Shown here: in pieces, positions 5,642 to 63,467 of the stretch
Position numbering within the stretch: the stretch's first letter is position 1
How the letters are laid out: each line of letters starts with the position of its first letter
NCBI GenBank assembly: GCA_037893245.1
Contig: JBAIAA010000352.1
Coordinates: 1,550,001-1,614,000, forward strand
Length of the DNA: 64,000 nucleotides
Reading direction: 5' to 3'
Source of the DNA: Crossaster papposus
Taxonomy: Eukaryota > Echinodermata > Asteroidea > Velatida > Solasteridae
The notes under the pieces: generated by a model
What the model saw: only the letters and a program-made list of their open reading frames with translations
Told to the model about the DNA's origin: nothing
Databases searched by the model: none
Position numbers and translations under genes: made by a program

Positions 5642-5772
5642 AGTTCATGTACAGTGTAGCATTTCCAACATTATTTGCAGATGCAGTGTAGGTATTCTTG
5701 TTGTAAGAACACTAACAGAGAATCTTTGAGGAGTGTGCAGTTGAAACTGAAATCTACTTTGTGTCTTCTCCC

Positions 5773-22200: not shown

Positions 22201-25200
22201 TAGCGCTCTAGTAATTTAATATAGCTCTATGACACAACCCGACGCACATCATTAGTGCAGAGGTTTTACCACGTGATTGCCGAGATTGGCTGACTGGTTC
22301 AGAAAACATTGGTTTGTTTAATAATGTGAAGCGCTTCGAGACCGTTGGTGATAAAGCGCTATACAGGGTGTCCTTAAAAAAAGTATACCCATCTTCAAAT
22401 TCATATTATTGCAAAACTACTGAATGTTTCTGAAAAATACAAATGTCTGTTGAAAGGATAGAATGCCCTCTGTCCAATGGTATAAGGTTCATTATGTTAT
22501 TGCCATGGATGACTGAACAAACAAGACATTTATGAAAGGTACTGAAATCAGCACTGTGACAAGTTGTTTTTACTTGTGTGACAAAGCTCAGGCAGGTGTT
22601 TGTAAGGACAAATTGTTTTATAGTTTAAACACATTGAAAAAGCAATGACTGGGTCGATGAATCATTTTTTCTGATCCCTTTCTTTTTGTGGTACACTTAC
22701 CTGACAAATTTAAGGTGATGTACCCTCCACATGGCCACTATTCCTGTTAATGCATAGCTGGCATCTTCGTCTCATGTCTCTCACTGCCCGCCTTATCATC
22801 CCAACTTGTCACAGTGCTGATTTCATTACCTTTCATAACTGTCTTGTTTGTTCAGTCATTCATGGCAATGACATATTTAACCTTATACCATTGGACAGAG
22901 GGCATTCTACCCTTTTAACAAACATTTGTATTTTTCAGAAACATTCAGTAGTTTTTCAAAAAAGTATACCCATTTTCAAATTCATATACTTTTTTTAAGG
23001 ACACCCTTGTATAAGCACCGCACATGATTATTATTATTATCTTTGTCTGTCCTATCTATTTCAGATCTCAGTAATATAGAGTATGTGTGCGGTAAAGCAG
23101 AGGTAGTGTTACCAGACATGACACAAGATCTTAAGGATTGTGATGACATCGTGGGTATCGTAGATCCCCCAAGGCCTGGCATACGTAAGCCTTCTCATTC
23201 TATCCAGGGATGTAGTCGAGTCCATCACAAGTCCCTGCAAGTCCCTGCAAGTCCATCAAAAGACATCCAGATCAGCTTTGACAAAAGCATTCCTTTGTCA
23301 TTGTTCATCCAGTTACTTGTGACTGCCTTTATGAAGGGACTTGTGGCTGGCTTCACGAAAGGACTTGTGAACGGACTTGCAGGGACTCGACTACAACCCT
23401 GATTCTATCTATTCAGGGTGTCCTCCGAAAAAAGAAAACACATTTTTTTTCAGGCAAATTACTCAATAATTCAGATTTTTTTTTTTTTTTAAAGTACACA
23501 TCATTGAAAAGCTCATTTTCTCTCCTTTCATATGATACCAATAACAGCTCACTTTTTGTTTTAATCAAATGTGACCCGCTCTGCAAAAATGAGTCTGTCG
23601 CAAAATACAATTTTTACGTAAATTTACGTGATTTTTTTTCAACAACTAAATTTATGTTTTAAGGCATTTTGGTTTCTCCGACACCTTTATTTTCAGATCT
23701 GATCAATTGAAAAGATTGTTTTGATCCCTAAATTAAATTTAATACAGGTTTTATCATTCTCTTGCCATAGCATCTGATGAAGCACCACAATTGTAAATCT
23801 TCATTTCTTTTCAAAGAAATTTTTAATATAACTAGGACAATTTCCCAAAATTTGTAAAAGACCATTGCATTACACTACAGAGTTGTGCCATATATCAAAT
23901 GAAAGCTTATTTCCTGACCAACTGTAAAATTGAAAAAAAAATCACTTGATTGGCTGAATTCTGAATTGCAGCTCCCAAGGTTCTGCAGGCCATTCGCAGA
24001 TGCGCCAACCTAAGACGTCTTATTTACGTCTCGTGCCACCCGCAGAATGCCATCAACAACTTCATAGAGTGAGTCGGAATATACATGTACATTAAATTGG
24101 TTTACGGAAGTTTAATTCAGGATTTATTGCTAAATGTGAAAAAAATACAACAGTGCACTGTGCAAAGCATTACGCATAGACTTCTTTACCTGACAATCAT
24201 TTCAACCATTTTGATAACATTTCTTCAAACAAAACCCCAAATTGAGAGAAACGAACACCCGATTCTCATAGTTGATCAACTTTTTAACCGAAATGAACAA
24301 TTAATCTTTATGTTACCATTCACGACAAAAGGGCTGTAAAGTCGCCAGAGCTTATTTTTGAGAAAAGGACCATTAAAATATGTGAACAACTATAAAAAAA
24401 CTAAAACAATTCGTATTCAGTGTTACTTGTTGTAGCTAACCATAAATTCCAACTATGTCTTTGTACTACATCATTTTAAAGCTTATTTCATTTCTCTAAA
24501 GATCTCAAACGTCAAGATGCCTACTTTACAGCCCTTTCGTCGTGGACGGTCACATATGTTAAAATATAATGTCCCTTTGAAAAGGTCACATGTGAACAAA
24601 GTGTGACATCATCAGTACATGGGATTATTCTATTTGTACGCGAAAAAAATATAACCAATATTAGGTCGTCAATTTTTTGTTTACGCGTCTGAGGTAGATC
24701 GGTCAGTCGGATAAAAATAGGAAAACAAATTAATTTCACTTGCACCTGTATAGACGATGTTCCCTCTGACGTAACGTGTTTACATCTGTATTAAAATGTG
24801 CCCGGCAGTATGCCCACACATCGTTTTTTACATAAAATTTGCTTAAAGAGTGACGTCGCAGGTCAGATCGCCTTTGAATTATATGACCTCTGATGTCATC
24901 TCTTAACCAAATTTATGTAAAACATGATGCGTGCGCACATTTGAATACAGATGTAAACAGATAGAGGGCACATCGTCTATAGATTACTAAATTAAATGAT
25001 GCCATGTGCGTACTGTCTATAGTGAGTTTATCATTGAATATAACAAAAATGAAGCCATCTTATGCAAGATATAGTTGACTAACATTATCTACACCATGCA
25101 GCTCACCACGTTATACTAGTAAAAAAAACATCGCATCAAAATTTGATGTTAACCAGTTCGTGCTGGAGGATGTATAGACACGCCATGAGCAAAGCCGGAA

Positions 25201-27283: not shown

Positions 27284-27474
27284 TCAGTCGTACTCGGAGT
27301 ATTTCTTGCTGGAGCCGTACACCTTCTGCGCTGGGTACTTCTTAGCATTGATACCCACTTTCTCCAAGGCGGCGCGGGGCAAGTCCACGTGGCATTTCTC
27401 GGCGAGTCGGATCAGGTACATGAGAACGTCGCTCAACTCCTGACCGAGGTGCTTCTTGTCCTTCTCCGACCAAT
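27284..27474 (-). CDS. DCTPP1: DCTPP1 last exon with stop
   Basis: Acceptor AATTCCCTTCAG. It encodes DWSEKDKKHLGQELSDVLMY, then the AEKCHVDLPRAAL and YPAQKVYGSSKKYSEY segments. Glu and Asp of QELSD complete the metal site. Confidence 0.95.
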
Positions 27475-30400
27475 CTGAAGGGAATTGTGAACATTTGTCG
27501 TTCAATTTGGCAAGGTCCTAAACATTTTTCCTCCCAGTCTGCCTCCACTAACCTAGCATATGGGTAGCACAACTAGAAGTTGAAGACGGGTGTTGCGCTC
27601 CGTCTCAACAATTGATTTTCCGGGTCTATCGCTTTGAAGAAGAGATATACTGACAATAGGCCTCTTGAGGACCTCTACTTACTTACTACTTAAACTTTTT
27701 TCAGAAGGCCAAGAAGACATGTCAACAGTTATTGCGTAGAGCCTTAAAAAAAATATAAATTTAAAGGCAAAGGTAGTTACCTTCTAATCCCTCTTTGCAC
27801 TCTCCTCGCCACTGACTGCAGAATAGAGAAAGAACAAAGTTACACAAAATGGCAATGTTGATCATTTTTGAAGCACGAAATGATCTTTTGCGACAATAAT
27901 TCCATCTTGTTCTTTGAGAATGTATTTTCGTGATTAACAATAGTATGATTGATTTACCTTTTTTGAGATAAGCTATGGATAGCTTATCTAATTAAAAAAC
28001 AAACATCTGCCTAAAAGATTTGAAGTTTGCAGAGGACATGTGGTTCTGTTTGTTTTCGCAGGGCGCTGAACCACATGATCTTGTGTATAAAACAAGATAC
28101 ATAAATAGGTACCTGTGAGGTCAGAGAAATGGTTATTGTGGTTTAATTTGTGCCGAAAGGGCCAGCGTCAGGTTGTATACTCCCGAGTCCACAGCGAGCC
28201 AAGACGATATTTAGAATGTTTTAATGAAAAGGGTAATAATGATTGTAGCACCAAGGCTTAAGCCCCTATCTGATTGATGCAAATGCTTTATGGATACAAA
28301 TTGTCAAATTTGTTTCCCACAATAAAAATGCACGGTGTGAACTTTGGATGCCTTGGCAACTCAAAAATACGGAAAACACAATCGATTTTGAAATTGTTTG
28401 TTCATGTATGGCGATTATTCAAAAAAAGGTTTTGGGGGATATTCCTCAGTGGGTCACAAATACGCATTATTATTATTATACTATATTTTACTATATTTCC
28501 CATTTTTTTCATTACACAATTTCTGGAAATCCTGAATATGTCACTCAGTTGAAATTTTACTTACAAAAGCTCAGAGACTTCGCCAACTTCTCCAATCTGT
28601 ACGGGGAAAGAAAAGTTCAACATTTCTTGTCAAAGACAAAACAGTATTGACTCTACATGTGCATACACCAGCCACAAAAAGATACAACTTTATTGGAGAA
28701 CAGACTTATTAAAGTTTATGTGTACCTGCTGTTGCATCAACCTCTGCTCTTCAATAAATATTTAAGAGCCACTTTAACGTAACCAGGCTTTTTTTGTTTG
28801 GCTAGTATATGTGATTTGTCATGAGCGTAAAGTCGCACGGAGTGATTTCCCAGTACGGCCAGTCAAAGTAAAAATTTGAAGGGGTGGTCGATTTTGAGAT
28901 TATATGCTTTTTTAAAGACTAAATCCCCAATAATCAATTCCCAATTTTTCAGGACGATCAGATAAACAAAAATAAAAAAATGAGACAATTTTGACTATGC
29001 CTTTCTTTCCGCGTTCACACAATTTCTCGCAAGAAATGCCTGTTTTCTCATAATCTCTGTATTAAGACTCTAGACTAAAAAATAAAAAAAATAAAAATAT
29101 TGAGTATCAAACCTTCAAGTGTTATATACCATTGGAAAGCTCTGTTTCCACAGAATTTAGAAATACCCATATCTCAATTTTTGATTTTGCCGACTTTACG
29201 CTCATTTTGTGATGACAGGTCACATGTGACTACCCTATTTGTTCAGGTTGTATTTAAAGGTAGGATACACCATTGGTAATTGCTTGAATTAGGGGAGTTG
29301 AATTTTATAGTAAATATCGTTTCACTGACCTGCCTAAAGTTTTACAATCATTGCCAAGGAAAAAAGGAAAATAAATGGCGTTTTTTTTCAACCGACGTTA
29401 AGATTTGTTTTTTAGAAAATTTAATTATTCGGAACAATTACAGGATATCTAGCGCAATCATTTTGCTGAATGCCTAGAATTTACTTTCAAATGAGTAAGA
29501 TATTTCTTAATAATTCGGTAGTAACATTTTGTCGATATCTGCAAATGGTGTATCCTACCTTTAAATTAATTAATAAAAGGGTATGCATTTTATTGGAATT
29601 CACCAGAAATGGAAATAAACACCTAATTACTTTCAGATTAAATCAAATGAATTCTTTGAGGTTTCTGTATATACCGGTATGTATTTGTTTCCATCTTTGA
29701 ATCTGTTATTCTAATTCACAAACAATTTGTTAGTTTTATAGTTGGCTAAATAACTTGCTAATCATAATCGCTTTTAGAGGATGACTACGTTATGTAATAC
29801 ATTACAATTATAAAGTCACTGATGTATAGTGTAATGGGGACAAGACAAAAAAAAAGCAACTGGGCACCGAATTCCTAGAATGCAGGCTTTACCCATATAA
29901 AAAAGTAGTGACCTTTGAGGGTTTTATCCAGTTCGCGCCGGGATTATTTTTTACGAAACTCGATTCGAGGCAGGTTGAGGCTGATGGTACCGGGAAGCAC
30001 ACCCACGCATTTTCATGCCTTGCTCGCTGCTGACAGACATTTCCAGCCTTGCTTGTGACGTGTTTATGCGTCATCCGTTTTGAATCTCGGGAAAATTTTG
30101 CGAGTATATACGTCCTCCGGCGCGAACTGGTTAAGGTGTAGTTTTTGTTAATACACCTTTGTTTTTGTCCACAGCAGCATAAGTCTCATTCAGCATATTC
30201 TGAACTCACTTATCCTTTGTTTACATATAAGATCTGGAAGTACGTACAGTTGCAGTACTCGTGCCCAAAGCCCTTCATCATGTGATTCACATACGACAGT
30301 GTGCAACGTTGTTGGGACATACTCAATAAGATTTTTTGGGGAGTTGTGGGACATAAAAAAAGGAGAAACATGGCTTAACCCTAACGCTCCTCAATCCTCC

Positions 30401-31672
30401 AAAATTCTCATTGCAGTTTTGGAGGATTTTTGAGAATTGAGGCTGTATGGGGTTTTACAAAAATGAGGATTTTTGAGGATTGAGGCACAATGTTGTTTCA
30501 AGTGTGAAGGATTTTTAAGGATTGAGGCTGAATGAGGATTTCAAAAAAATGAGGATTTTGGAGAAATGAGGCTGAATGGGGTTTTCAAAAAATCATAATG
30601 AGGATTTTGGAGGATTGACTTTTTTCAATCCCCAGAATCCTCATTGCAGTTTTGGAGGATTAAACAAATTGAGGATTTTGGAGAATTGAGGCACATGATG
30701 TTGTTTCAAGTGTGGAGGATTTTTGAGGATTGCGGCTAGATGGGGTTCTCAAAAAATGAGGTTTTAAAACAAAATGAGGATTTTGGAGGATTGAGGATGG
30801 TTGCTAGCAAAAAGGGCCTGGGGGGTTAGGGTTAATATGAGATTTGAGCGAGTCTTACCATAGCAAGCAGAAGGTTCCTAGGTTGATGGAATTGGTCCCA
30901 ATCTCTCTGCTTGGCAAACTCCGCTTGAACAGCTCTCCTACACACACGCAATAAAGGAATCAAATCACAATTTGTTACACAACTGATGCTGCCAACTGTC
31001 AAGACTCAATCTCGTATGCGAAAGTCTTAAAACCTTAAAGGTAGGATACACCAACACACCATTGGTAATTGCTTGAAATATCATGAATAGGTACATTTGG
31101 GGGGTTGTATTTTATAGTAAATACCGTTTAACTGACCTGGAAGTTTTACAATCACGGATGCCGAGAAAAGTTTGTTTTCAACCAGCGTCGAGAAGTTATT
31201 CTTATGTTATCTTTGGTTTTTTCGCGATCGCTGTCTGGGGATCGCAAATTTTTCTTTCTAAAATTTAATTTGTCGGAATAATTACAGGATATCTAGCGCA
31301 ATCATTTTGCTGGATGCCTAGAATCATTATTTACTTTCAAATAAGTAAGATATTTCTTAATGATTTTTGATATCTGCAAATGGTGTACACTACCTTTAAC
31401 TAAACTGCATTCTATAGTTAAGCCCCCCTTTTGAATGGATCAGATACGTACAGTTCTTCCATGGACGGCCCGTCGCTAAACCGGAATTCCTTCTCGTTAT
31501 TTTCCCCAGACGATGCAACGCAGTCCTCCCCGTTCTCCCCGTCCATGTCCAAAGATCGCACCTCCGTTATGTTCAACAGTTGGTCCGGGCCTAGTTGGTC
31601 CGGGCCGAGTTCGCTCTTTGCGATTGCACTTGCTTGCTGTAGTTGCTGGTCACCGTCGGATGCGTCGTCCAT
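27284..31672 (-). CDS. DCTPP1: DCTPP1: dCTP pyrophosphatase, five coding exons, complete
   Basis: Exons 31672-31452, 30937-30859, 28596-28565, 27815-27781 and 27474-27284 join with matching phases into 186 codons (185 residues plus stop), close to the 170 residues of human DCTPP1. The enzyme hydrolyses dCTP and modified dCTPs to the monophosphate plus pyrophosphate and protects the nucleotide pool. Domain: all-alpha NTP pyrophosphatase (MazG-like). The metal-binding motif is complete: E103 and E106 in GEVGEVSELF, E135 and D138 in QELSDVLMYL. FRFSDGPSMEEL (63-74) and RDWDQFHQPRNLLLAM (85-100) match the family. Residues 1-60 are an acidic, low-complexity extension. ATG at 31672 is the first Met of the exon. 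The same exon has a good acceptor at 31737 and stays open upstream, so a longer product is possible. Confidence 0.92.
27551..27680 (+). mobile_element. SINE fragment matching the body of the 39386 SINE
   Basis: GCATATGGGTAGCAC, CCGTCTCAACAATTGATTTT, GAAGAGATATAC and TGACAATAGGCCTC repeat the body of the SINE at 39386. The tRNA-like head is missing. Confidence 0.7.
27781..27815 (-). CDS. DCTPP1: DCTPP1 exon 4, 35-bp micro-exon
   Basis: Between CTGCAG and GTAACT it encodes QWRGECKEGLE, the loop between the two metal-binding helices. Confidence 0.9.
28100..28260 (+). mobile_element. SINE body fragment
   Basis: TAGGTACCTGTGAGGTCAGAG, GTTATTGTGGTTTAATTTGT and GTATACTCCCGAG match the shared SINE body. 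The head is absent. Confidence 0.6.
28565..28596 (-). CDS. DCTPP1: DCTPP1 exon 3, 32-bp micro-exon with metal-binding EVGE
   Basis: Between TTTCCCCGTACAG and GTAAGT it encodes IGEVGEVSELF. The phases fit both neighbours exactly. It supplies the first two metal-binding glutamates. Confidence 0.92.
28809..29226 (-). mobile_element. TGACCTGTCATCACAAAATG-end element (copy 1), about 420 bp
   Basis: This is the inverse of 63468-63896 along its whole length. The ends share GAGCGTAAAGTCGCACGG at one side and CTTTACGCTCATTTTGTGAT at the other. It is non-coding. Confidence 0.85.
29253..29564 (+). mobile_element. GGATACACCATTGG-family element (copy 4, shortened)
   Basis: TTAAAGGTAGGATACACC to GGTGTATCCTACCTTTAA with a deletion that removes the GCGATCGC hairpin. 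Confidence 0.88.
29926..30135 (+). mobile_element. CAGTTCGCGCC-family element (copy 6)
   Basis: ATCCAGTTCGCGCCGGGA to CGGCGCGAACTGGTTAA, with the part between the two ATTATTTT runs deleted. Confidence 0.85.
30400..30805. repeat. Degenerate minisatellite, GAGGATTTTGGAGGATTGAG
   Basis: Units of GAGGATTTTTGAGGATTGAGG with GGCTGAATGGGGTTTTCAAA linkers recur every 40-60 bases, with some inverted units (TCCTCCAAAATTCTCATTGC). It ends about 50 bases before the DCTPP1 exon 2 donor. Confidence 0.75.
30859..30937 (-). CDS. DCTPP1: DCTPP1 exon 2
   Basis: Acceptor GTGTGTGTAG, donor GTAAGA. It encodes RAVQAEFAKQRDWDQFHQPR followed by NLLLAM, the first two helices of the all-alpha fold and very close to the human sequence. 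Confidence 0.93.
31035..31399 (+). mobile_element. GGATACACCATTGG-family element (copy 5)
   Basis: TTAAAGGTAGGATACACC, with a short internal repeat AACACACC, to GGTGTACACTACCTTTAA. It ends 53 bases from DCTPP1 exon 1. Confidence 0.88.
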
Positions 31673-31736
31673 CTGGGAGTTAGTGTCGACTGACGAAATT
31701 GAGAGACGTCTATTGAAGGTGGATGACGGCGCATGA
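31452..31736 (-). CDS. DCTPP1: DCTPP1 exon 1, or internal exon of a longer transcript
   Basis: The donor is GTACGT; CT plus G makes the Leu of MEELR. On the 5' side CTTTTACCATCCCAG is a convincing acceptor at 31737, followed by an open frame reading HAPSSTFNRRLSISSVDTNS before the Met at 31672. The exon is therefore probably not the first one. Confidence 0.85.
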
Positions 31737-32012
31737 CTGGGATGGTAAAAGTAAGGTAAAATATTAAGACAAATTTACCCAAGTGAGCAAAACATTACAT
31801 TAACACAGGAATACAGAATAATTTGTTTAAGGTCGTATCTCGGTCATGCCAGGCCTATAGCTTAGTTAAATGATTATAACAATTCAAACATTAATCACTG
31901 CACGAGCGCAGATGTACGTCTTTTCTTGATTGACACAAAAAGTGGCTTTGAAATCTTTTAAAAAAATATTGTGATTTTTTGTCCGACAACTTTTGTTATT
32001 GTTTTGTTATGT

Positions 32013-32087
32013 TAACCAGTTTGCGCCGCGATTATTTTGACATTGACCGGACCCAAACATATACACGTCCTTCAACGCAAACTGGTG
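32013..32087 (+). mobile_element. CAGTTCGCGCC-family element (copy 7, about 75 bp)
   Basis: TTAACCAGTTTGCGCCGCG and CAACGCAAACTGG ends with only 40 bases between. This is an extreme internal deletion. Confidence 0.7.
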
Positions 32088-33351
32088 AGAGTCCAGTTCA
32101 TTTTAAAAGTATTTTCTAACAAATTTGAAATTTGTTTCTCAGTTTCTCATTGTCTTGTGCCCAGACCAAATGATTCCGACTAGGGTATTTTCAAGTCAGG
32201 GAACCAGATTATAAACCAAAAATAAAAAATTAATTTTAATATGGCGTCAGAAATAATATAACACTCTATACCAACAATTTACAATTAATAACATTATTAA
32301 CGTTAATACTCTAAATATATTATTATAAAGAAGTTACAACTAACATTATTTATTTAGTACACTTCTAAACACTAAACACTTCTATTAACTGGTCCACATG
32401 ACATGCCTGAGGAACAGACTGTACCTGCACATTTTCCCACCTGTCCGTCGACTTTAAATGTAAAGTGCGCCACCACCAAGTAGCAGATTTGTTTTATGAA
32501 GAGCGCCCCCAAACACGCGCCGTGCTAATATTGTCAGTTGCGTCGCGGGTAGCTTATTTTCGCATGCATGGCCAAATACTCGATTTCTGATGAGTAAATA
32601 ATTAAGTGTTTGCGCACAGTGGGCGTTTTCAAAGTACGCCTGTGTAGACATTCTTTTGAATTTGTATAGTTAAGAACTCTAGCCTGGACCAAATTTCACC
32701 AAAATACTAATTTTCCTCACGTCACACCATTCACATCGAACATTCTTTCTAGCCACTGTCACTTTTCCCAAATAATACCGTAACCCATTTATTACCTCTA
32801 GAGCTCTTATATAAAAAAAAGAACAAACCTTGCGTGGACGTGGCCAAGTCCACACAAGGTGTTCAGTTCGTGTATTGTGTGGACTATTTGTTTGCAAGTA
32901 CAGTCCGGCAGAAGGATGTACGTATGCCCTTATGCGCAAACGCGTAATCGCCAAAAATGTTCCCAGCAAAAGGGCATATGCAAAACAACTGCCTATATTT
33001 TAATGAATTGTAAACATTTATCCTTAAAGTTAACACAAATTGCTCTCAAAAGTTGTGATTCAGGTGTGTGACAAATATAAAATGTGTACAGTTTATGACA
33101 CGTGTAAGAGAACATTGGATTCATAGTACGTGTGTGGGAACATTGGAGCCTTTTAACGCATTTTTTTATGAAAGTGATGTTTGCGTCAGAACGCTCGTAT
33201 ATGCCCATTCTGCTGGGCACCCGATTGTACAGTGTACATGTACTTTGTACCGTGAAGTAATTTTGAGTCCGGCCTACGTATCCAAGATTGACTCTTTCGA
33301 TCTCGAATTTCTACAAATCTGCTTATACTAGAGAAAAGAAATCAATGGTGC

Positions 33352-33586
33352 TTACCTCTGAGCGTACACGATGGCCTTGTTCTGCGGGGAAGCGCTGCCG
33401 CCGACGGCCACAGACCCATCGTACCCGTGTGCGTGACCCGCCTTAGAGTAGTCGATCAGTTCGTCTTGATATAAACTCGAAGAGTCGCCGAAAAAATCAC
33501 CCACATCATCAGGCGAACGAGCCCCGCTCATGTGATCGGGTGTGTGCACGCGTGACGCGGTTCTGCATAGTGCCTTATTCCGCTGT
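33352..33586 (-). CDS. Exon 4 of the unrecognised gene, stop or alternative donor
   Basis: Acceptor GATGTGACAG. It encodes QRNKALCRTASRVHTPDHMS and an acidic stretch SPDDVGDFFGDSSSLYQDEL, ending KAIVYAQR with TAA. The bases AG-GTAAGC at 33357-33350 form a near-consensus donor overlapping the stop. Confidence 0.6.
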
Positions 33587-36500
33587 CTGTCACATCATGG
33601 AGGAATACTAGTTTATTCCCATCAATTATTATCCATATTGGTTTGTATTATTCATTATACAGGGTGGCCCCTAAAACACGGACAATGCATACTTCCACTA
33701 CCCTAGCCAAAACTATCTTTACCAATAGACGGAGAATCTTTCTAGTAGAAAAACGCTACCAAGATAATCATTTGGGCCAGTATAGTTTTAGCTGTAGATC
33801 CTATTTTGTGAATCACAGTCAGACGTCCTTAACCTTTCGCACCGAGAAAATCATGTTAAATTGGCAAGAACGGTTTAGTTATTTCTCGGTGTAAAGTGAC
33901 CTCTGACTTTGCTTTACAGGGTCTGGAGCTAAAACTATAAAACCCAAATCGAGATATCTTGGTATCGTTTTTCTCCAAGATTGTCCTTCCATGTTATAGG
34001 TATAGTTTTGGCCACGGGGTAATGAAAGTACATGTATATGCTTTGTCCGTTGATGCATGCTTGTCCAGGGCTGCGTTCCACTTACGCGAACTGTTTGCGC
34101 GAACGTTCGCCTACGTTTTGAGTTGGCGTTAGTTGAAGTGGAACGATATTTTAAAAAGTACGTTTTCAAAATGGCGAACCCCCAGTGACAGTGAGATTGT
34201 TTGGTTGGCTGTTTTTTGTCCAGCTCATTATTTTTCTTTAAAAGATCCCTGTGAATGCTCAAAACAATCCACCGTTTAAAACGAAAAGTATGAAACGTAA
34301 ATTAAAACCGTGAAAACAACACTGCCGTCTGCTAACCTCTTCGCCATCTTTAAAATACGTCACTGGCCAACAGCGAACAGCTCGGAATGTCGTTCGCCGT
34401 TTTCGCTAACGTTCGCTAAAATAATTGGCGCATATTGCGTTCCACTCACGCAAACAACGCTAACGTTGGCCAACGTTGGCAACGTTCGCGTGAGTGGAAC
34501 GCACCCCTGGTTTGTTTGGGGGACACCTTTTTATGCTCTTATATTTGTTTTTAAGAGTGAACAAAAATTACTCTCCAAAAAGAGTGAATCCCTTACATAG
34601 CCACTCTATTGGGCTGGGTTCGGACGGTCTGTTCTTGACACGCGCGAAACTCGTCCGCCGAAACTTTCCGGCGTAAGAGCGCGAATGGAGTTTCGCGTGT
34701 GTCACGAACAAACCGATCGAACCTAGCCCGAAGGAGTAAAACCCCAGTAAAAAAAAGAAGAAGTTTAAACCACTCCAAAAGAGTGCAATTTCCACTTTGT
34801 TGAGGAACCACAAGGGACTAGTCTTAAAAGAGTGGCCCCTTGCGACTAAAAAAAAGGAAGAAGGAATAACTTTTGCAATGACTTTTGGTTTTAGTAATAT
34901 AGTATTCAGTTTAGAGTACCTGGAATAACTGTTTATACTAATGGGGGCGCTGTTCCCCTTTCTTGTCACTTACTTTCGCTTGTAGTGCGTGACGGCGTTG
35001 CAGATGTACGACTTTACGGCGCGTCGCACTTTGTTTTTCACCGTCACTTCGTTCCTGAGTAGCGGGCAGAGGCGCATGACCTGTTTGCATGCAGTAAAGT
35101 ACATTGGTTTGGTAAGCACTTAAAATGAGCAACCACAATGACAACCCTAGAACCAAGCCCCACACAGGGCCACGTTAGTGGGGCTACAGCTATCCCGACC
35201 ATAGCCTTAAATGCTAACACTAACCACCGAAGCCGCACGGCGATGTCGTAACCATAGCCACACGGCGGTGTCGTTTTGGTTGTAGTGTTTGACTACAATG
35301 AGTGCCTTCCGATTGGTTCATTTCCACTCATTCATAAATTGTTGGAAAGAATGTAGTATCCCTCATCCTGCCGCAACTTCCTTGGTTGTGTACAATGGTG
35401 TGTACGTGTACATGTACATGTAGGCCTATGGTATTATGGAGAGTTTGATCGAGTGCATGCAATTTCAAAGTACTTACAAAACAAAATATAAAATTGGAAA
35501 TATTTCTCAGTGTCCCAGGTTCTGCCTTTTTCACAATTTTTTGCACAATAAAATGGTTATTTTTCTGCGAACCTGACTGGTTTGTGAGTTCTTATACTAA
35601 TTGGTCAGCTGAAGACACAAAGTTTGTAAATTAAATGTCACATCATTTGTTTCCTCTTAAAGGGATCGTATACGTTTGGTAATTACTCCAAAAATTAATG
35701 GCAATAGAAACTTACTTGTTAAGAAGTGCGGCAGCTTTGGATAGTATAATGCATTTTTTAAAACTGTTCACTTCGAAGTACTGCGGTTATGGAAAAAAGA
35801 TATCTCTTTTTATCCCAAAAAAATTGAATCTGAGAAGCGTTATACCCCCGTCACACCGGACTGGCGTCCTTACTGCGTCCTAAAATAGAGGACGCCGATG
35901 GTCGCCGTGAGAACCCCAATCCTTTTTCTTTAAAATATCAAGATTTCGGTCACCCGTCACACCGGGGTCCTGTGCTCCGCGATCTGTACGTCTACTCGGC
36001 GTCCCCACGGCGTTCTCACCACGACCTTACCGCGTCCTTGGCGTTTCTATTGAGTTTGCACGGCGTCCCCACGGCGATCATCGGCGACCTCACGGCGTTT
36101 TGGGCGTTTCTACCACGACCTTACCGCGTCCTTGGCGTTTCTATTGAGTTTGCACGGCGTCCCGACATCGCAGTAAGGACGCCATAGACGTGGTGGGGTC
36201 GTGGTAAGAACCCCATAGACGTGGTAAGGACGCAGTAAGGTCGCCGCGGGGTCCACGATCCATTTATTCGCGTCTCCACGGCGACCCTACCACGTCCATA
36301 CTGCGTCCCTAGGGCGTCCTTCGAGTTCCTACTGCGTTGCTACGGCGACCATGGCGACCCCAGGGCGATCCCACCGCGTCCTGATCCAGGACGCCAAACC
36401 TCGGCGTTTACTTTGAACATGTCCGAAGTAAACGCCGTCGCTCTGCGACCTTCGGCGTCCTTGGGGTCCCCACGGCGTCCTTCTGCGTTCTCACCACGAC

Positions 36501-39500
36501 CCCGCGGCGTCCATGGCGTCCCTACCGCGTCCTGGGTCGCCGTAGGAACGCAGTAAGGACGCCAGTCCGGTGTGACGGGGTATTACTGCAGTGACGTTTC
36601 TCAGATTGTGTATTCCAATGCAGATAATTCTTCCAGCGTGGACATAACCGCTCCAGATTTTTGGCAACATTTCAAAATCGCTAACACCTTTTGAAATGAA
36701 TTTTGTACAGGTTAGTTTTATGGTATATATCTATAACTATATAGGATTGAAACAAACAGTGGGTTCCAATTACCAATCGTATACGATCCCTTTAAACTGT
36801 GAGATTTTCTCTGTCTTTTACCTCTGTGATGATGTCGTTCATGTGATGGCATTTCATACTCGAGAGAACACCGGAGTAATTCTCCACAGCCTGTCTTACT
36901 GCAGACTAAAAAGACACAAATAAATAAAAAATGATCCATATTTCTAGATGACTCTATAGCCGTGTTCGCACTGGATAAACGTTTTTGGTAACTTTACCAT
37001 GACGCCGGGTAACATTCCGATGGGTTAATCTTCCCACCGTTCACACTTGGATTTAATTGACGCGGGTAGAATTGCCGAGACCGTGGGTAAACTAACCGAG
37101 CTGGCTCAAAAACAATAAAGAGGGCGCCTTGCGTGTCCTATGACCACGACCGGATCGTCTGTTCCCGACGCTAGCTCTCAACATTATTTTCTTACATAAT
37201 GGGTGATGGAAGATTTAACCGAGACGTCGCGTCCGCACTGGATTTTCTGGCTCGGTTAAACTGACCTGGTCAATCTTCCTGGGCACCCTTGGCTCGGTTA
37301 AACTACCCACGCGGCGTGGGTAAGTTACCTGTGAGGAAAATTACCCAGGCTGTTCGCACTGGACTTGAAATGGGTAAGTTACCCATTGGCTCGGTTAGTT
37401 TGCCCAAATTAAGTCCAGTGCGAACAGGGCTTATCATGAGTTAGAGGACATTATGTGACCCGCTTTGTGAAATTGAGTCAGATGTCGCACAGCGCGCTTA
37501 TGAGATTTGGGTGGTTGAACGCGGAGAGGGGATTTTTCATAAGAAAATTAGATATTTCTATTTTATGATTTTCACCTTGGTTAGGATCTATATTTTCAAT
37601 TTCTACATTAAAACATGCTGAATTAACACAGTGGGAAGGGCTTGGTTGCTTAGGGTTTCTATTGCATACATCTCATATAAAGGGAAATATCTTTTGTAAT
37701 GCATGATTTCTCATGAATGGGGTTTTTAGATTTCGCAAAATCGTCAAATTAAAATTGGTATATCACAATAACGCAACATGCTACAGACCTCCCACATAAT
37801 TAGAGATCTTTATTGTTAATGTGTTATTGTTGAAACTACTGAATAGTCATGACGCGAGGGGTGCTGGGAAAAAAACAACTATGCGTCCCGGAAGTTCGGT
37901 TTCTCGTAAAGTCTCGTACGTTCTCGAGGTCAACTTACACGCTGTATTCCCATGATGTCTTTGTTGAAACTACAAATTGTACTGATGCGGCGATGAATAA
38001 TGGAAAGACATCTGTTGTTATCGAACAGATAAAAACAGTTAATTGTAATCTTATTACTCGAAGATTGCCGCCAATGCCACCGGAACTTAGTATGTGCATA
38101 ATTCTCAAAAGGACGGTCAGACCAACTTAATGTTGTCGCATGTTTTAATGAACTGTGCTGGTACATGTACTTTAAATTTTCATGCAATAGTCATTTGAGA
38201 TTTTAGCATTTGCATATCTTAATAATATGTTTAGTCTGAGTATCATCCGTTTGTGTAATAATGCCAGTCGGCCGCTCCGTGTTCAACGTCTGATATTGCA
38301 ATTTGCGACCACACGACCTGGGGCCAATTTCACGGAGCTGCTAAGCACAAAAATTTGCTTAGCATGAAAATTGTCCTTGGCAAAAACAAGGTTACAGTCC
38401 AAATGTTCACGTGATCTTTATTGTTTTTGATTGATAATCAGCTGTTTTTTTGCTTAGCATGAAAAACACGTAGAATTTTGGCTGGCAACCTGTTTTTAAT
38501 GAGCAAGACTTTTTTTGTGCTAAGCAAATTTTTGTGCTTAGCAGCTTCGTGAAATTGGCCCCTGAGTCGTAGCCATTTAGAAATGGTGACGTCATTTCTA
38601 TCAGATATGCAGATGTGGGCTGTTGATTGGTCAATTTGGCTGCTGTGATGCAACAATTGGTTTCCCAAGACCGCGATATAGAAGGCGCCCGCTGAATGGT
38701 CAGAATCTGCCGAGTCAAGACGTGGCGTTAATTGTTATGCAAAGTTAATCGCCCAATCAGCGCGAATGTCGTAGAAGGCTTGTTCGCAAGTGGCTGGTCG
38801 GTTGGCTTCAAAGAGTTGCCGATCATTCATGCGTACTAGCTCAAATTCAGTTATTCAAAATGTGGATACCTTATGTCATGCAGTATGGACTGAAATGAGT
38901 TGTATAATTTTACTGCGTCGTAGACACAATGGGATTACGCCAAAGTGCTTTCCATAATGTTCAGTCACATTAACATGACTGATTAGTAAACATCGATGTA
39001 TGTAGGCGTTTTCAACCAAAATGGTTCGAATAAAATCTCCCCTCCCTTAATCTATGTGACGAAATATGAATAATGTGCCGTATTGAACGCGGCGCGGCCC
39101 CTAACGTGGGTGCACTTTGGTTGTTTGCATCTATACTGTTCCTTGATATTGTAAATGTTTTACCTCAAAGCTCTAAACATTTCTTATTCATAAATCTTCA
39201 GTTTACCTACTTGTTAATTCAAAGTAAACAACCAAATGTATTTTGGCGTAGCCTGCTTTTGAGGTCCATAATTAATTACTCTTTAGAATTGCGTCAAAAA
39301 TAAAAAAATTACTTTCTGACAAACTTCTTGTTGGGAATATGAGCGAAGGTATATATAGGTATGCCTTATGGTTTATCGGAATTTGGCCGGTTTAGCTCAG
39401 TCGGTAGAGCACCGGACTAAGGATTGCAAGGTCCGCAGTTCAAATCTGCCTTCGTTCGCCCAACATATGGGTAGCACTTTGGTGCGGTAAGAGAACTGGG

Positions 39501-42500
39501 AGTTTTCCGTCTCAACAATTGATCTTTCTGGTTTAGCGCCAACGAAAAGGGGATATACTCCCTGGTTGTATGTCTGATACCGACAATAGGCCTCCTCGAC
39601 CTACCCCACCTTACCCTTATCGGAATTTGTAGACATTTGTACATGTTAACTTGTGATTTTCCGAGATTAATTCTTGCGAGCCACGTTAGGGATTCGGCCG
39701 ATTTTGTGCCCATTTTCCCAGACGCTGCCCGGCCACCGTTTTTGTTATTTTATATTTCGGACTAAATGTCACGACATTGAGCATGCAAGCAATATTAAAG
39801 GTAGGGCACACCATTTGTTCCTACACTCCAAAATAGTATTATTACCTAACACACCCCACTAAAAAATAATTCCTGTGATTCCGGGAACACAATTACCAAC
39901 TTAAAATAGGGAGGGGGGGGGGGGGGGGTTTGTCCCCCTGTCTTATATCTTGCTAATTATGTCAAAAAGAAACCATTTTGCTTAACTCTTACAACAATAT
40001 ATGGAAGAAATCTCTCTTAAATATTAATTTGAGACTTTCAAACATGGCTGGTGAAATACTGAGGACCTCTTTTTTTTGTCTTGAAAAACAAAATTGGACG
40101 ATTTTGTGGGCTTAAAAATTGACTAACGTTGGCCCTAATTTATGTGGCATGTTTCCAGCACCCCTGGTCCCTGTCTGCCCGAACCATATTGTGGGAAAAT
40201 AAAATGCTGAACCCCCCTCCCCCCCCCCCCCCCCCGGGACGCGATTTTTTTCTTCTAAACGACATCGCCACAGAACTGGTTTTTAGCGTATCTAATTGGC
40301 TATCTGTTACGTCATGGTAGTAAATTTTACTCTCAATTTATTGACCCTAGGATTCTCAACTTTTTGAACCTAGGACTCTGGGTTTTATTGACCCTAGGAC
40401 TATCAACTTATTGACCCTAACCTTAACCCTTTTGGACCTTTAGGACTCTAGGCTTTTTTAACCCTAGTACACGTCATGCAATGCGACACATGGATGAATG
40501 GATGACGTAGATGTTAAACAACCAATCAGATGCGCTAAAAACCAGTTCTATGGCGATGTCGTTTGGGAAAAAAAATTGCCCCCGGGACAGCTAAACTCCT
40601 GAGACCAAAATGAACTGGCCCTGCAACTGTGGTGCATTTACCCCTACAATAGTGAAATTGAAGGTTAACACTGCTGCGAATATGGGAAAATGAAATTTTG
40701 TAAAACAGGACTTTGTGTTACATGTGGAGAAAAGTGTGAAAACAGTTTCCCACGTACGCGTAAAAAAGTGTGAAAATAATTTCCCGCGTTGGCAACGTGT
40801 GAAAAAGTGTGAAAAGAACTCCCCCACACTGCGAATGGGAATTGGAAATATTGTGAAAAGGTGTGAAAAAGATTTCCCTCTCGCGTGAAAAGGTGTGAAA
40901 CTACTTTGATTATAAATTCGGTACCCTGTGTAAATGAAAAGGCGTTAAAAGAGTTTCCTTCCTAAGGTCAACTGTATACTGTACAACTAGAGTACATGTA
41001 CGTTTGTTTATGGTGTAAATCGAGGAGTTTCTTTTGTTCCTCTCGATAATTTCCTTTGTTTGTACTCTAACTTTTTCCGAAGGCTCTCATTGGTTTTGTA
41101 CACGAATCTCAATCGAGGACGTCCTCGATTCTAACCCTTAACCCCAATTCACCTTCATGTCGCCAGGCATGTGTCCTCCATTTACACCATAAACAAACGC
41201 ATGGATACATGTATACTCATTTCATTTGTGTTTCCAACATTGGTCTGAAGATTGTGGGAAAGTAATTCGGCCTATGTCGACCGAGGGCTGTCCGTTCTCG
41301 GTTGAAAGTTTAACGAAATAAAGATACACGCGATTTCACGAAAGAAAAGAGGATATAATGTTTTAGTTTTCGTCAGTCTGAAGGTGATTTATAACATTTT
41401 TTTACTGTAAAATAGTAAAGTACTTTACTGGCAGCAGGGGCGCCAGTAATGTACTGTACCAAAAAAAGTATTTTTTTGTTAAAGTAAAATGTAATACTAA
41501 TAAACAAATCGGCTAGCCAAGAATAACGTTTCTGAAGATATAATTCTTCGGCATGGTCGCTGGAAAACTAGAATGGCTAAGAACCGTTATGTTATAAAAG
41601 AGATCTGAGCCAACGACTTGAGGTTTCCAAAGCCGTATTGACCTGATTACTGTTTGTTTTTCGATTTAAAGGTATGATATACCATTGGTAATTGCTTGAA
41701 TTATCATGAATAGGTAGAATTTGGGGGTTGTATTTCATAGTAAATATCGTTTAACTGACCTATTCGAAGTTTTACAATCATGGATGCCAAAAAAGCAAGA
41801 AAAACAGCGTTTGTTTTCAACCGGCGTCGAGCAGTTATTCTTATGTTATTTGGTTTTTTTCGCGATCGCCGTCCGGCGATCGCGAATTTTTCTTTATCAA
41901 ATTATATTTTTCAGAACAATTACAGGATATCTAGCGCAATCATTTTGCTGGATGCCTAGAATCATTATTTACTTTCAGACGAGTAAGATATTTCTTAATA
42001 ATTCGGTAGTAAATATTTTTGATATCTGCAAATGGTGTATCCTACCTTTAAAAGAGATGTTAGCTAACGACTTGAGGTATCCAAAGCCGTAATGACCTGA
42101 TTACTTTTTGTTTTTAGATTTAAGGGGTGATTCGGTAAGATGTGTCTGCCAACACGATACGGCACTTTGTTGAATACCGAATTTAACCAGTTCGCGCCGG
42201 AATTATTTTACACCGAGCCGAGGGGCGGGATTATTTTTAACGAAACTTGATCCGAAGCGGGTTCAGGCTGATAGTGCCGGGAAGCACACCCACGCATTTC
42301 TGGCCTTGCTTGCTGCTGACAGACATTTCCGAACTTGAACTTGGCGTGTTTATGCGTCATCCGTTTTGAATTTGGGGGGAAAAATTGCGTTTATATACGT
42401 CATACCGCGCGAACTGGTTAATACGAGTGCCATCGAGGCAGAGTGTTACTTGGGTAGTTGCCCTTGTGAGCCAGCGAGGCTTATAATGTATGTGCATAAT

Positions 42501-44420
42501 TGTTAACTTTGTATTGTTGTTGTTGTTGTTCCAGGCGCACACCAGAAGGCCGAGATGGCCACGATTGTAATAAGGCAGTTACCTTGTTGCATTATGCCCT
42601 TCGGTATTGTAATTTCTGTGAAGTTTCATACATCATTAATGTTTATGCATTTGGCATCATTGTGCAGTCCCATGCTGCTGGCTCAATAAAATATCGCAAT
42701 GAATTTCGTTTGCATACTCTGTTTTTGTTAAGTTGTGTCGGTGTTTGAAAACCAAACTGTTTTCCATGCGTTATATGAGCGCAGCGAAGTAGCATGAAAG
42801 GGCTATTTTGTAGTCTGTACTCGGTAGGTTACCACAATTTTATATATTTAGAAATTGAATAGAATTAGAATGGAAACCAGACTAAATGGAAATATAAAAT
42901 GTACACATTACGTATGCTACGATAACCTACTATAGGCCTAATACTACTATTACTAACTGTAATACTATAGCGGTTTTAGCTTTATACTCCGTATTTATGA
43001 CGAAGTTACAGTTTCCCCTGAACATTTTTAATATTTCATTTGGAATTCATTGCCGATGTTTACAGCAAAACACACAAAATTAACTTTGGGGAATTGTTTA
43101 AATAAAACTCATTATGGTCAAGAAAGTGCGTTTTAGGGCTAAAAACAAAAATTCAAAATGACTTTGGTGAACACAAATTTCTTTAGTTCTGATTGGACAG
43201 TTGCTGCTTAATGAGATTTGTGTAGAATAACTGTTAAATTCTGTACACAAATAACTCTAAATATACGGTGACAATGGAATACAGTTTATTACTGTATAAT
43301 ATTATGAACTGTAGCGTGGAGTGCCGCGGCCTCGTGGTCTGGCGAATTGAATTTGTAATCTGTGGGCTGCGGGTTGTGGGTTCGAGTCCACCCTGGTTAC
43401 CGTGGTACGTGTGCCCTTGGGCAAGGCACTTTGTCACTCATCGCTTCTCTCCACCCAGGAGTAAATGGGTACCTGTGAGGACAGATGCTTTGCACCGAAA
43501 TGGCAGCATCGAGCTTGTATACTCCTCAGCAGAGAGCTGATGAGATGGTATTTAAAATGTTTTTATATATTGAAGCACCGCACATTATTGTTATTAAATG
43601 CAGTACATTTAGAACATTTTACAGCAACATTTTACAGTGTGATACTCACATTGAAATGTAGATGTGCTTTGGGGTTAGGCGCCAATTCAATCTTGAGCCC
43701 TTTCCAGGCCGAGGACACACCAGGCGTGACGGCCGATCCGCCCGTGTCCTCGTCGCCGTCGTTTCGCTTGGACCTCGGACTGTAGAACAGGTCGGCCTGG
43801 GAGTACATCATCGGCACCAGGCTGTACATGGACGAGGTGTGCTTAGAAGTCAGGATCTCTCGCAGGCTCTTCCGGAGTCCGCAGAAGACGGCCGAGCGTC
43901 CGACGGGGCTGCAGCAGTAGTGCTTGCTGACTTGACTCGTCCAGGGCGGTAGGGCCGACGATGCCGGTGTTGCCAGCGTGGGCAGTAGCATCGGAACGGT
44001 GATGGGATGGTACGCATGGCTTGTCAGCGGCGGTGAGCCTCCCCTGCGGTCCCTGCCCGCCCTGTGAGTTGTGTCTCTTCGCTCTCTGTCCGTCATGGCT
44101 GCACTGATAAACGCAGACACCGCCGTCTGGATAACGTGGCAACGCTCCTTTTGGCGGTAATGGTCTGTGATGCTGAGACCATTCAGTGAGCCACCGTAGC
44201 ACAACAGAGGATGCCCAACTTTTAGCTTCAGTGAGTTCGGTGAGTTCGGTAAGTTCAGTGAGTTCGGTGAGTTCAGTGAGTTCAGTGAGTTCAGTGAGTT
44301 CAGTGAGTTCAGTGAGTTCGGTAAATTTGATGAGTTCGGTGAGTTTGGTGAGTTCGGTGAGTTCGGCTCACGTGGGGAAGACTGGAGGTGGTCGGATTCG
44401 TCTTTGAAAGAGAAGTCCAT
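33352..44420 (-). CDS. Unrecognised multi-exon protein, four exons upstream of DCTPP1
   Basis: Exons 44420-43650, 36905-36822, 35080-34974 and 33586-33352 join in phase into 398 codons plus a TAA stop at 33352. I do not recognise the family. What can be seen: the N-terminus (about residues 17-70) is a run of NSP/NSL tripeptides; then a basic segment; SSMYSLVPMMYSQADLFYSP near the end of exon 1; an alpha-helical block SAVRQAVENYSGVLSSMKCH; and a basic helix KNKVRRAVKSYICNAVTHYK. The C-terminal part is acidic and Ser/Gly/Asp-rich. There is no signal peptide or membrane segment. The start at 44420 was chosen because it has a good context (CCGATGG) and begins the non-repetitive peptide MDFSFKDESDHLQ. 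Splice sites are all GT-AG. The last exon ends in CAGAGGTAAGC, where the stop TAA overlaps a strong donor, so it may instead splice into DCTPP1. Confidence 0.6.
33656..34067. mobile_element. GGTGGCCC-end inverted-repeat element (copy 3)
   Basis: It begins ACAGGGTGGCCCCTAAAAC. TTTAGCTGTAGATCC and GGTCTGGAGCTAAAA, and CTTTCGCACCGAG and CTCGGTGTAAAG, are paired arms as in 1030-1566. The right tip is cut by the next element. Confidence 0.65.
34066..34510. mobile_element. Inverted-repeat element, GTGCGTTCCACT ends, about 440 bp
   Basis: The left end CCAGGGCTGCGTTCCACTTA and the right end GAGTGGAACGCACCCCTGG pair. The interior is rich in CGTTCGC and GCGAACG motifs. Confidence 0.78.
34549..34840. 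mobile_element. AGAGTG-repeat element with a nested hairpin
   Basis: AAAAAGAGTGAATCCC and CCAAAAGAGTGCAATT flank a hairpin at 34609-34730 whose arms are TTGGGCTGGGTTCGGACGGT and CCGATCGAACCTAGCCCGA. The hairpin looks inserted in the outer repeat. A related AGAGTG-rich sequence lies at 48236-48486. Confidence 0.6.
34974..35080 (-). CDS. Exon 3 of the unrecognised gene
   Basis: Acceptor GCATGCAAACAG, donor GTAAGT. It encodes VMRLCPLLRNEVTVKNKVRR, then AVKSYICNAVTHYKR. It is basic and probably helical. Confidence 0.65.
35657..36795 (+). mobile_element. GGGATCGTATACG-family element (copy 2) split by a Harbinger-like element
   Basis: TTAAAGGGATCGTATACG at the left and CGTATACGATCCCTTTAA at the right. 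Halves 35657-35842 and 36583-36795 rejoin to the uninterrupted family sequence GAGAAGCGTTACTGCAG. Confidence 0.88.
35843..36582. mobile_element. Harbinger-like non-autonomous element, 740 bp, TTA target duplication
   Basis: The terminal repeats TACCCCCGTCACACCGGACT and AGTCCGGTGTGACGGGGTA extend over more than 35 bases, and TTA flanks both ends (35840-42 and 36583-85). The interior is far more GC-rich than its surroundings and consists of many short GGCGTCC, CCACGGCG, ACCGCGTCC and inverse units. A 3-bp TTA duplication is typical of PIF/Harbinger elements. There is no transposase frame. Confidence 0.85.
36822..36905 (-). CDS. Exon 2 of the unrecognised gene
   Basis: Acceptor GTCTTTTTAG, donor GTAAAAG; 28 whole codons encode SAVRQAVENYSGVLSSMKCH, then HMNDIITE. 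It is amphipathic and helix-like. Confidence 0.65.
36959..37437. mobile_element. Inverted-repeat element, GTGTTCGCACTGGA ends, about 475 bp
   Basis: The left end AGCCGTGTTCGCACTGGA and the right end TCCAGTGCGAACAGGGCT pair, and TAT flanks both sides. The interior has repeated GGTAAACT and AACCGAG motifs. Confidence 0.8.
37438..38317. other. Intron sequence with one GTGACCCGCT end
   Basis: ATGTGACCCGCTTTGTGAAA at 37454 is the start of a GTGACCCGCT-type element whose right end I did not find. The remaining AT-rich sequence shows no gene. Confidence 0.4.
38318..38563. mobile_element. GGGGCCAATT-family element (copy 4, full length)
   Basis: CTGGGGCCAATTTCACGG and GAAATTGGCCCCTG ends; the inner part is inverted relative to 21506 (CATGAAAATTGTCCTTGG near the left end). 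Confidence 0.88.
38564..39372. other. Intron sequence without a recognisable feature
   Basis: AT-rich; short open frames only. No repeat family was recognised apart from the flanks. Confidence 0.4.
39373..39629 (+). mobile_element. tRNA-derived SINE with a 13-bp target-site duplication
   Basis: The SINE at 39386-39616 is flanked by identical TTATCGGAATTTG at 39373-39385 and 39617-39629. The head GGCCGGTTTAGCTCAGTCGG has an intact A-box and GCAGTTCAAATCTGCC an acceptable B-box, but the anticodon stem and acceptor do not pair, so it is not a functional tRNA. The body GCATATGGGTAGCAC-type and CGTCTCAACAATTGAT are shared with 27551. Confidence 0.9.
40233..40590. mobile_element. Inverted-repeat element, CGACATCGCCA arms
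   Basis: Left CCCGGGACGCGATTTTTTTC, ACGACATCGCCACAGAACTG, GTTTTTAGCG pairs with right CGCTAAAAACCAGTTCTATG, GCGATGTCGTTT, TGCCCCCGGGA. The centre has repeated TTGACCCTAGGA units. It is preceded by a run of Cs at 40213. Confidence 0.7.
40690..40925. repeat. GTGTGAAAA-rich repeat (copy 1)
   Basis: Units of AAAGTGTGAAAA with TTTCCC-type linkers recur. A related stretch is at 51360-51600. Confidence 0.6.
40990..41210 (-). mobile_element. CGTTTGTTTATGGTGTAAAT fold-back element, dispersed copy
   Basis: It starts CGTTTGTTTATGGTGTAAAT and ends ATTTACACCATAAACAAACG, about 215 bp. Inside are AGGAGTTTCTTTTGTTCC, AATTTCCTTTGTTTGTAC and CCCCAATTCACCTTCATG, the inverse of the tandem unit at 61609-62600. 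Confidence 0.82.
41217..41665. other. Intron sequence, low information
   Basis: It includes a small inverted pair around TTACTGTAAAATAGTAAAGTA and GGCGCCAGTAATGTACTGTA. No gene was seen. Confidence 0.35.
41666..42051 (+). mobile_element. GGATACACCATTGG-family element (copy 6, near-consensus)
   Basis: TTAAAGGTATGATATACC to GGTGTATCCTACCTTTAA, including the GCGATCGCCGTCCGGCGATC hairpin. It is among the best-preserved copies. Confidence 0.9.
42183..42422 (+). mobile_element. CAGTTCGCGCC-family element (copy 8, full length)
   Basis: TTTAACCAGTTCGCGCCGG to CGCGCGAACTGGTTAA, with TTAA at both ends. Confidence 0.9.
42423..43315. other. Intron sequence without a recognisable gene
   Basis: AT-rich sequence with a short GTTGTTGTTGTTGTT run near 42516. 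I found no splice-bounded open frame that extends a neighbouring gene. Confidence 0.35.
43317..43600 (+). mobile_element. tRNA-derived SINE, GCGGCCTCGTGG head
   Basis: GTGCCGCGGCCTCGTGGTCT, B-box GTGGGTTCGAGTCC, body CCCTTGGGCAAGGCACTTTG and CTCCACCCAGGAGTAAATGG, tail GCACCGCACATTATTGTTAT. It ends 50 bases from exon 1 of the unrecognised gene. Confidence 0.8.
43650..44420 (-). CDS. Exon 1 of the unrecognised gene
   Basis: 257 codons from ATG 44420 to donor GTGAGT at 43649, with GC content far above the flanks. The reading frame is open further upstream to 44780, but that stretch reads like non-coding DNA. The segment ending LKIELAPNPKAHLHFN precedes the donor. Confidence 0.65.
44215..44375 (-). 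repeat. 9-bp coding minisatellite (Asn-Ser-Pro/Leu tripeptides)
   Basis: About 17 units of GTGAGTTCG or GTGAGTTCA on the plus strand encode NSP/NSL/NLP on the minus strand inside exon 1. The period is a multiple of three, so copy-number change keeps the frame. Confidence 0.85.
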
Positions 44421-50348: not shown

Positions 50349-50564
50349 CAGGGATGTGGTCAAGTCCATCACAAGTCCCTGCAAGTCCCTGCAAGTCCCT
50401 GCAAGTCCCTGTAAGTTCCTTTAAGTCCATCACAAGTCCTCCAGCTCCAATTCAAATCACAAGCTATTCAAATGAGCTTCGACAAAAGCTTTATGAAAGG
50501 ACTTGTGACTGGACTTGTGAAAGGACTTGTGCAAGGACTTGCAGGAACTCGAATACAACTCTGA
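50349..50564. mobile_element. CAGGGATGTAGTCGAGTCC-family element (copy 3)
   Basis: CAGGGATGTGGTCAAGTCC followed by four AAGTCCCTGC units and an AGTTCC variant; the right end GGAACTCGAATACAACTCTG is more diverged. Confidence 0.82.
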
Positions 50565-63086: not shown

Positions 63087-63467
63087 GTGAGTCACTCTCC
63101 CCTTATCACTCCCCCTCCTCGATCCCTGCTCCCCTTCTTTGCAAACCTACCCTCTCCTTCTCTCATGATTACACACATCCTCCCGGTCGGGGATTAAAGT
63201 TAGCTACTCGCTCCGGGGAAACTCCTAATGATTCTATATCCTTCTTAATGGGCTCGTTATCATTGTTCAGCCAATCTGCACGACATCCTGAACTTTAAAA
63301 TCAAATCTCCCCTTGCTACATGTTAGCGTTCAGGTTATGCTGTACTGAGATAGAGGGTAAAGCCAAGGTAAAAACAAAAGATTGTTTCTTGTACGAGGGT
63401 TTTGAAAAATGGGTGACCTAGGGAGAAAAAAAAGTATGTGGGTGAAGCTATAAACTGGTTTATATAT

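Follow-up and report, generated by a model that had tools for sequence, protein, structure and literature searches.

Exon structure of the locus

We analyzed a stretch of 64,000 nucleotides (nt) from the asteroid echinoderm Crossaster papposus (assembly GCA_037893245.1, contig JBAIAA010000352.1, positions 1,550,001 to 1,614,000; hereafter the window), in which a predicted gene for DCTPP1 (deoxycytidine triphosphate, or dCTP, pyrophosphatase 1) follows the exons of another, apparently poorly known, protein-coding gene on the minus strand. A preliminary description of this DNA had raised the possibility that the two are joined in frame into a single protein. As laid out there, nine minus-strand exons running from 44420 to 27284 join into 1815 nt, or 605 codons (604 residues and a stop codon), and we reproduced the coordinates, the single reading frame and the GT-AG borders of all eight introns (Table 1).

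Splice sites were scored with a model built from metazoan frequencies, and ranked against the 3683 GT and 3428 AG sites on the minus strand. The donor of exon 4 (GAG/GTAAGC) falls in the top 0.08% and is the third strongest on the strand, and the acceptor of exon 5 falls in the top 1.72% (score 4.06). The acceptors of exon 3 (top 15.4%) and exon 4 (top 13.9%) are weak, and exon 5 likewise has a weak donor (top 13.2%). Exons 1 to 5 have a G+C content of 0.46-0.58, whereas the two flanking stretches that were measured have 0.32 and 0.37.

Table 1. Exons of the nine-exon chain and candidate features in the gap between exons 4 and 5, in window coordinates
Feature	Coordinates	Strand	Remarks
Exon 1, upstream gene	43650..44420	-	ATG at 44420; open for 257 codons; donor GTGAGT; coding periodicity after the repeat, p 0.0024
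Exon 2, upstream gene	36822..36905	-	coding periodicity, p 0.011
Exon 3, upstream gene	34974..35080	-	coding periodicity, p 0.003; phase-2 end; weak acceptor; donor forms TAA
Exon 4, upstream gene	33356..33586	-	coding periodicity, p 0.0014; phase-2 donor at 33355, very strong; weak acceptor
Candidate DCTPP1 5' leader exon	32441..32783	-	TATA match TATATAAG at 32813; predicted transcription start about 32783
Candidate alternative last exon, upstream gene	32349..32406	-	acceptor score 3.47; RHVMWTS and stop; AATAAA at 32354
Head of exon 5	31673..31736	-	one base and 21 open codons, from the acceptor to ATG 31672
DCTPP1 first coding exon (exon 5)	31452..31672	-	coding from ATG at 31672 or 31546
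DCTPP1 second coding exon (exon 6)	30859..30937	-	chain and homology
DCTPP1 third coding exon (exon 7)	28565..28596	-	chain and homology
DCTPP1 fourth coding exon (exon 8)	27781..27815	-	chain and homology
DCTPP1 last coding exon (exon 9)	27284..27474	-	chain and homology; carries the stop codon

DCTPP1 in exons 5 to 9

Exons 5 to 9 are clearly predicted to encode a normal DCTPP1, a member of the MazG-like all-alpha nucleoside triphosphate (NTP) pyrophosphatases. Their product matches the Pfam MazG-like model PF12643 (35.1 bits, cut-off 27), and in the 185-residue form beginning at 31672, residues 44-183 align with mouse RS21-C6/DCTPP1 (chain 2a3q) at E 3.8e-43; the name given in the preliminary description was therefore correct. 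The related MazG model PF03819 scores 20.3 bits, slightly under its cut-off of 22, and NCBIfam gives a single weak match (13.1 bits, cut-off 208). The acidic ExxE and ExxD residues, in GEVGEVSELFQW and ELSDVL, are identical in the mouse alignment; we take these to be the metal-binding positions of DCTPP1. A DCTPP1 search of genome contigs found 2 bacterial relatives among 28 candidate stretches.

The alignment with the mouse protein begins directly after the ATG at 31546, near the mouse protein's own start, indicating that no exon upstream of exon 5 is needed for DCTPP1. Unlike the mouse protein, the sequence here has an open, coding-like frame for 42 residues upstream of the mouse-like start, back to the ATG at 31672, and a further 21 open codons from that ATG back to the acceptor.

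The first DCTPP1 coding exon also contains a 15-nt tandem duplication (31578-31611, minus strand) that produces an in-frame GPDQL repeat. Two copies of one element, 85-95% identical in pieces, lie about 1.8 kb apart in different DCTPP1 introns (29288-29569 and 31095-31404).

The upstream gene in exons 1 to 4

Coding potential was measured with a position-specific base model trained on three stretches of the window, namely the frame of a seven-transmembrane (7TM) receptor, the DCTPP1 core and one piece of a PAP2 phosphatase gene; it replaced a codon-usage model with a small training set, which was uninformative. In shuffle tests of the frame used in the chain, periodicity supports exons 1 to 4 as protein-coding (Table 1), as had been suggested, with the exception of the head of exon 1, which consists of an Asn-Ser-Pro/Leu repeat with a 9-nt tandem repeat at 44227-44366 and has no coding periodicity (p 0.32). 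The coding signal reaches the donor of exon 4, with a log-odds score (LOD) of 4.4 over the final 26 codons. From the ATG of exon 1 to the TAA at this donor, 1193 nt and the G that follows make 398 codons, in agreement with the earlier count of 398 residues. The open frames containing exon 1 and exon 5, each scanned alone, gave no Pfam match with an E of 0.1 or less, and a search of viral contigs with exons 2 to 4 found no match.

A possible relationship to BEN-domain proteins (Insensitive, BEND6, NACC1, BANP) is a weak lead suggested by the sequence of exons 2 and 3. The likeness is a match to PF10523 that spans the exon 2/3 junction and is confined to the C-terminal half of the domain (profile positions 39-74 of 76), scoring 16.5 bits (E 0.01) with exons 2 to 4 alone and 13.6 bits (E 0.079) with all 604 residues, both below the Pfam cut-off of 23.2. 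The upstream protein differs from these proteins in falling below the cut-off and in that the N-terminal half of the domain (Leu-rich helix, Ser/Thr-Gly stretch) was not found, a crude regular expression giving no match on the minus strand between 36900 and 50000. Comparison by hhalign with four BEN sequences aligned 20 columns at the same end of the profile (P 0.066, probability 0.8%), and among solved structures the single match, to an unrelated protein, was at chance level (E 2.4). With these values, we did not accept BEN as the identity of exons 2 to 4.

The introns of the upstream gene carry repeats of their own. Between exons 2 and 3, at 35846-36580, perfect 33-nt inverted repeats lie 669 nt apart around a repeat-filled interior, and by its look this element is a non-autonomous DNA transposon. 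Two near-palindromes resembling miniature inverted-repeat transposable elements lie at 34436-34503 and 37350-37427, with arms of 34 nt and 35 nt that are 85% and 80% complementary, respectively.

The gap between exon 4 and exon 5

Exons 4 and 5 are separated by 1619 nt on the same strand, and the donor and acceptor that face each other across this gap are canonical and in frame. Taken alone, the sequence suits two separate genes at least as well as one in-frame fused protein. We lean towards two tandem genes of the same strand, DCTPP1 having a non-coding leader of its own, as the most likely arrangement and one that makes fewer demands than a fusion in accounting for the data. Starting from the observed exon chain, the identity of DCTPP1, the point at which coding signal sets in and the candidate sites within the gap, we propose a leader, a promoter and separate ends for the two genes. 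Exons 1 to 4 would then, with the same slight leaning, form a poorly known gene whose transcript runs past exon 4, leaving it by the strong donor at 33355 and joining a further exon. By way of the acceptor at 31737, the first DCTPP1 coding exon would probably be spliced to its leader, with translation starting at ATG 31672 (185 residues) or at ATG 31546 (143 residues). It would then be a coincidence that the phase matches and the frame stays open from one side of the gap to the other.

The head of exon 5, between the acceptor and ATG 31672, is probably 5' untranslated region (UTR) and possibly a fusion linker. At the edge of this exon the G+C content steps from 0.32 in the 164 nt upstream to 0.49 in the first 67 nt, and this sharp step, together with the rank of the acceptor, bears out the earlier remark that the first DCTPP1 exon begins with a good 3' splice site. 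The head itself shows no coding signal (p 0.45 over 22 codons including the ATG), whereas the 42 codons after ATG 31672 (31669-31544) do (p 0.0014), with a score reached in 0.01% of 7195 local non-coding windows. The frame upstream of DCTPP1, previously said to read like protein, thus does so from ATG 31672 onward but not over the 21 codons between acceptor and ATG. Among non-coding windows, 49% score as low as the head or lower, compared with 18% of 171 windows from exon 1 (after the repeat), 0 of 8 from exon 2, 0 of 15 from exon 3, 5% of 56 from exon 4 and 0 of 53 from exon 5 beyond its ATG; leave-one-out scoring gives 2% of 92 windows for the DCTPP1 core and 5% of 111 for the PAP2 piece. 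The low coding score of this short, Ser-rich head of 21 codons counts mildly against a fusion.

We also estimated how often an open, in-phase head would follow an acceptor by chance. Counted frame by frame, a run of 21 open codons follows 21, 21 and 20 of the 57 strong acceptors on the minus strand and 25, 24 and 21 of the 68 on the plus strand, or about 36% in any one frame, so that, given the acceptor, a matching phase and an open frame are expected together in about 12% of cases (1/3 x 0.36).

Within the gap lie sites that could serve two separate genes, among them the candidate leader and the candidate last exon of Table 1, neither of which appears in the preliminary description. The donor at 32440, which would close the candidate leader of DCTPP1, ranks in the top 0.38%, and the G+C content before it is 0.49 and 0.45 in 100-nt bins from 32600 and then drops to 0.25. 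Joined to 31736, the leader (32783-32441) carries stop codons in the DCTPP1 frame, which would put the start of translation no earlier than 31672. Because a TATA match and a donor paired in this way occur in 5.0% of 2496 stretches of the length of the gap, the leader is no more than a candidate. For the end of the upstream gene there is the candidate alternative last exon, and polyadenylation hexamers (AATAAA or ATTAAA) lie at 33004, 32793, 32354 and 32240. Two further candidates were rejected: the acceptor at 33327, although scoring higher than that at 31736 (5.07 versus 4.06), stands 28 nt from the donor, a distance too short for an intron, and an internal exon at 32586-32441 between exons 4 and 5 would meet a stop in its frame before the donor and has a length that breaks the phase.

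The in-frame TAA after exon 4 (33354-33352) overlaps the donor, and the preliminary description had read this as a choice, by stopping or splicing, between two proteins. Such an overlap is found at 3 of the 8 donors of the chain, those of exons 3, 4 and 7. Because a phase-2 intron leaves two codon bases before the cut, a GTAA donor always reads xxG TAA, and the overlap, being automatic for any phase-2 intron with such a donor, is no sign of a regulated choice, so that this claim falls. For this TAA to be the true stop, it would have to lie exactly at the third strongest donor of the strand, and exon 4 accordingly looks internal rather than like the site of a choice between two proteins. If the locus does hold two separate genes, it serves as a caution that phase-2 GTAA donors always mimic a stop at the splice site.

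Fusion and other readings

Several observations weigh against two separate genes. The low-score test of the exon-5 head is weak, because 36% of 470 receptor coding windows (leave-one-out) score as low, and the head taken together with the next 42 codons, that is, all 64 codons upstream of 31546, scores as coding overall (p 0.0064). A frame of 47 codons that begins at an out-of-frame ATG at 31734 overlaps ATG 31672, which would be awkward in a 5' UTR, and the candidate leader, whose combination of TATA match and donor could arise by chance at the frequency given above, contains several upstream ATGs. Among acceptors of the gap that leave an intron of usable length, the one at 31736 scores best, and exon 4 ends in a very strong donor.

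Much of this would fit a fused gene, or an in-frame read-through isoform, in which splicing joins exon 4 to exon 5 and yields a protein of 604 residues with the upstream protein at its N-terminus and DCTPP1 at its C-terminus, possibly alongside a shorter DCTPP1 from its own start. From the sequence we regard this as possible but rather unlikely. In its favour, every junction is canonical and in frame, both splice sites rank high, coding signal runs up to the exon-4 donor, the frame stays open, and exon 4 looks internal, the first in-frame stop being merely the intron GTAA, as at exons 3 and 7. Moreover, in solved DCTPP1 chains of 110-111 residues the shared core is preceded by 10-15 residues, compared with about 30 in the full mouse chain, and an altered DCTPP1 N-terminus could thus be tolerated. 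Against it stand the 21 linking codons, which have no coding signal of their own, the frequency of about one in eight with which phase and openness would agree by chance, and the rival splice, promoter and polyadenylation candidates within the gap; in addition, among the matches listed in the literature on DCTPP1 with echinoderm, or on at least two of DCTPP1, BEN domain and fusion, titles and the beginnings of abstracts mention no such fusion.

The locus resembles read-through chimeras of adjacent genes (tandem chimerism, or cis-splicing of adjacent genes, cis-SAGe) in its same-strand arrangement, its gap of 1619 nt and its in-frame donor and acceptor. Such chimeric transcripts are described in the literature, whereas the present locus is known from the genome. 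A shade more doubtful still is a lineage-specific fusion of a nuclear, possibly BEN-like DNA-binding protein to a C-terminal dCTP pyrophosphatase, which might clean up dCTP at chromatin and be made next to a shorter DCTPP1 from an internal start. A fusion, if true, would tie a nucleotide-pool enzyme to a possible chromatin protein, an unusual partner for DCTPP1.

It is improbable that the upstream gene ends with exon 4, with a true stop at 33354-33352, a fortuitous donor and acceptor (31737) and DCTPP1 transcription starting in or just before exon 5: the TAA directly after exon 4, the polyadenylation hexamers in the gap and the rise in G+C at 31736 would agree with it, but the stop would have to fall on the third strongest of 3683 donors and a top-1.72% acceptor would have to sit at the exon edge by chance.

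Other features of the window

The 7TM receptor used in training is an uninterrupted frame of 491 codons at 4172-5644 (minus strand) with a rhodopsin-family domain (PF00001, E 7.9e-16) and a tail that is repetitive by eye. The PAP2 phosphatase gene is represented by two exon pieces on the plus strand, 59914-60315 and 62949-63194, which match PF01569 at profile positions 3-38 and 48-72, both below cut-off; between them, at 60559-62599, lie a 27-nt minisatellite and a 199/401-nt tandem array. Short arrays of a 10-nt unit, CAAGTCCCTG, occurring on either strand and in rotation, are found at 21208-21261, 23228-23254, 50372-50428 and 56453-56489.

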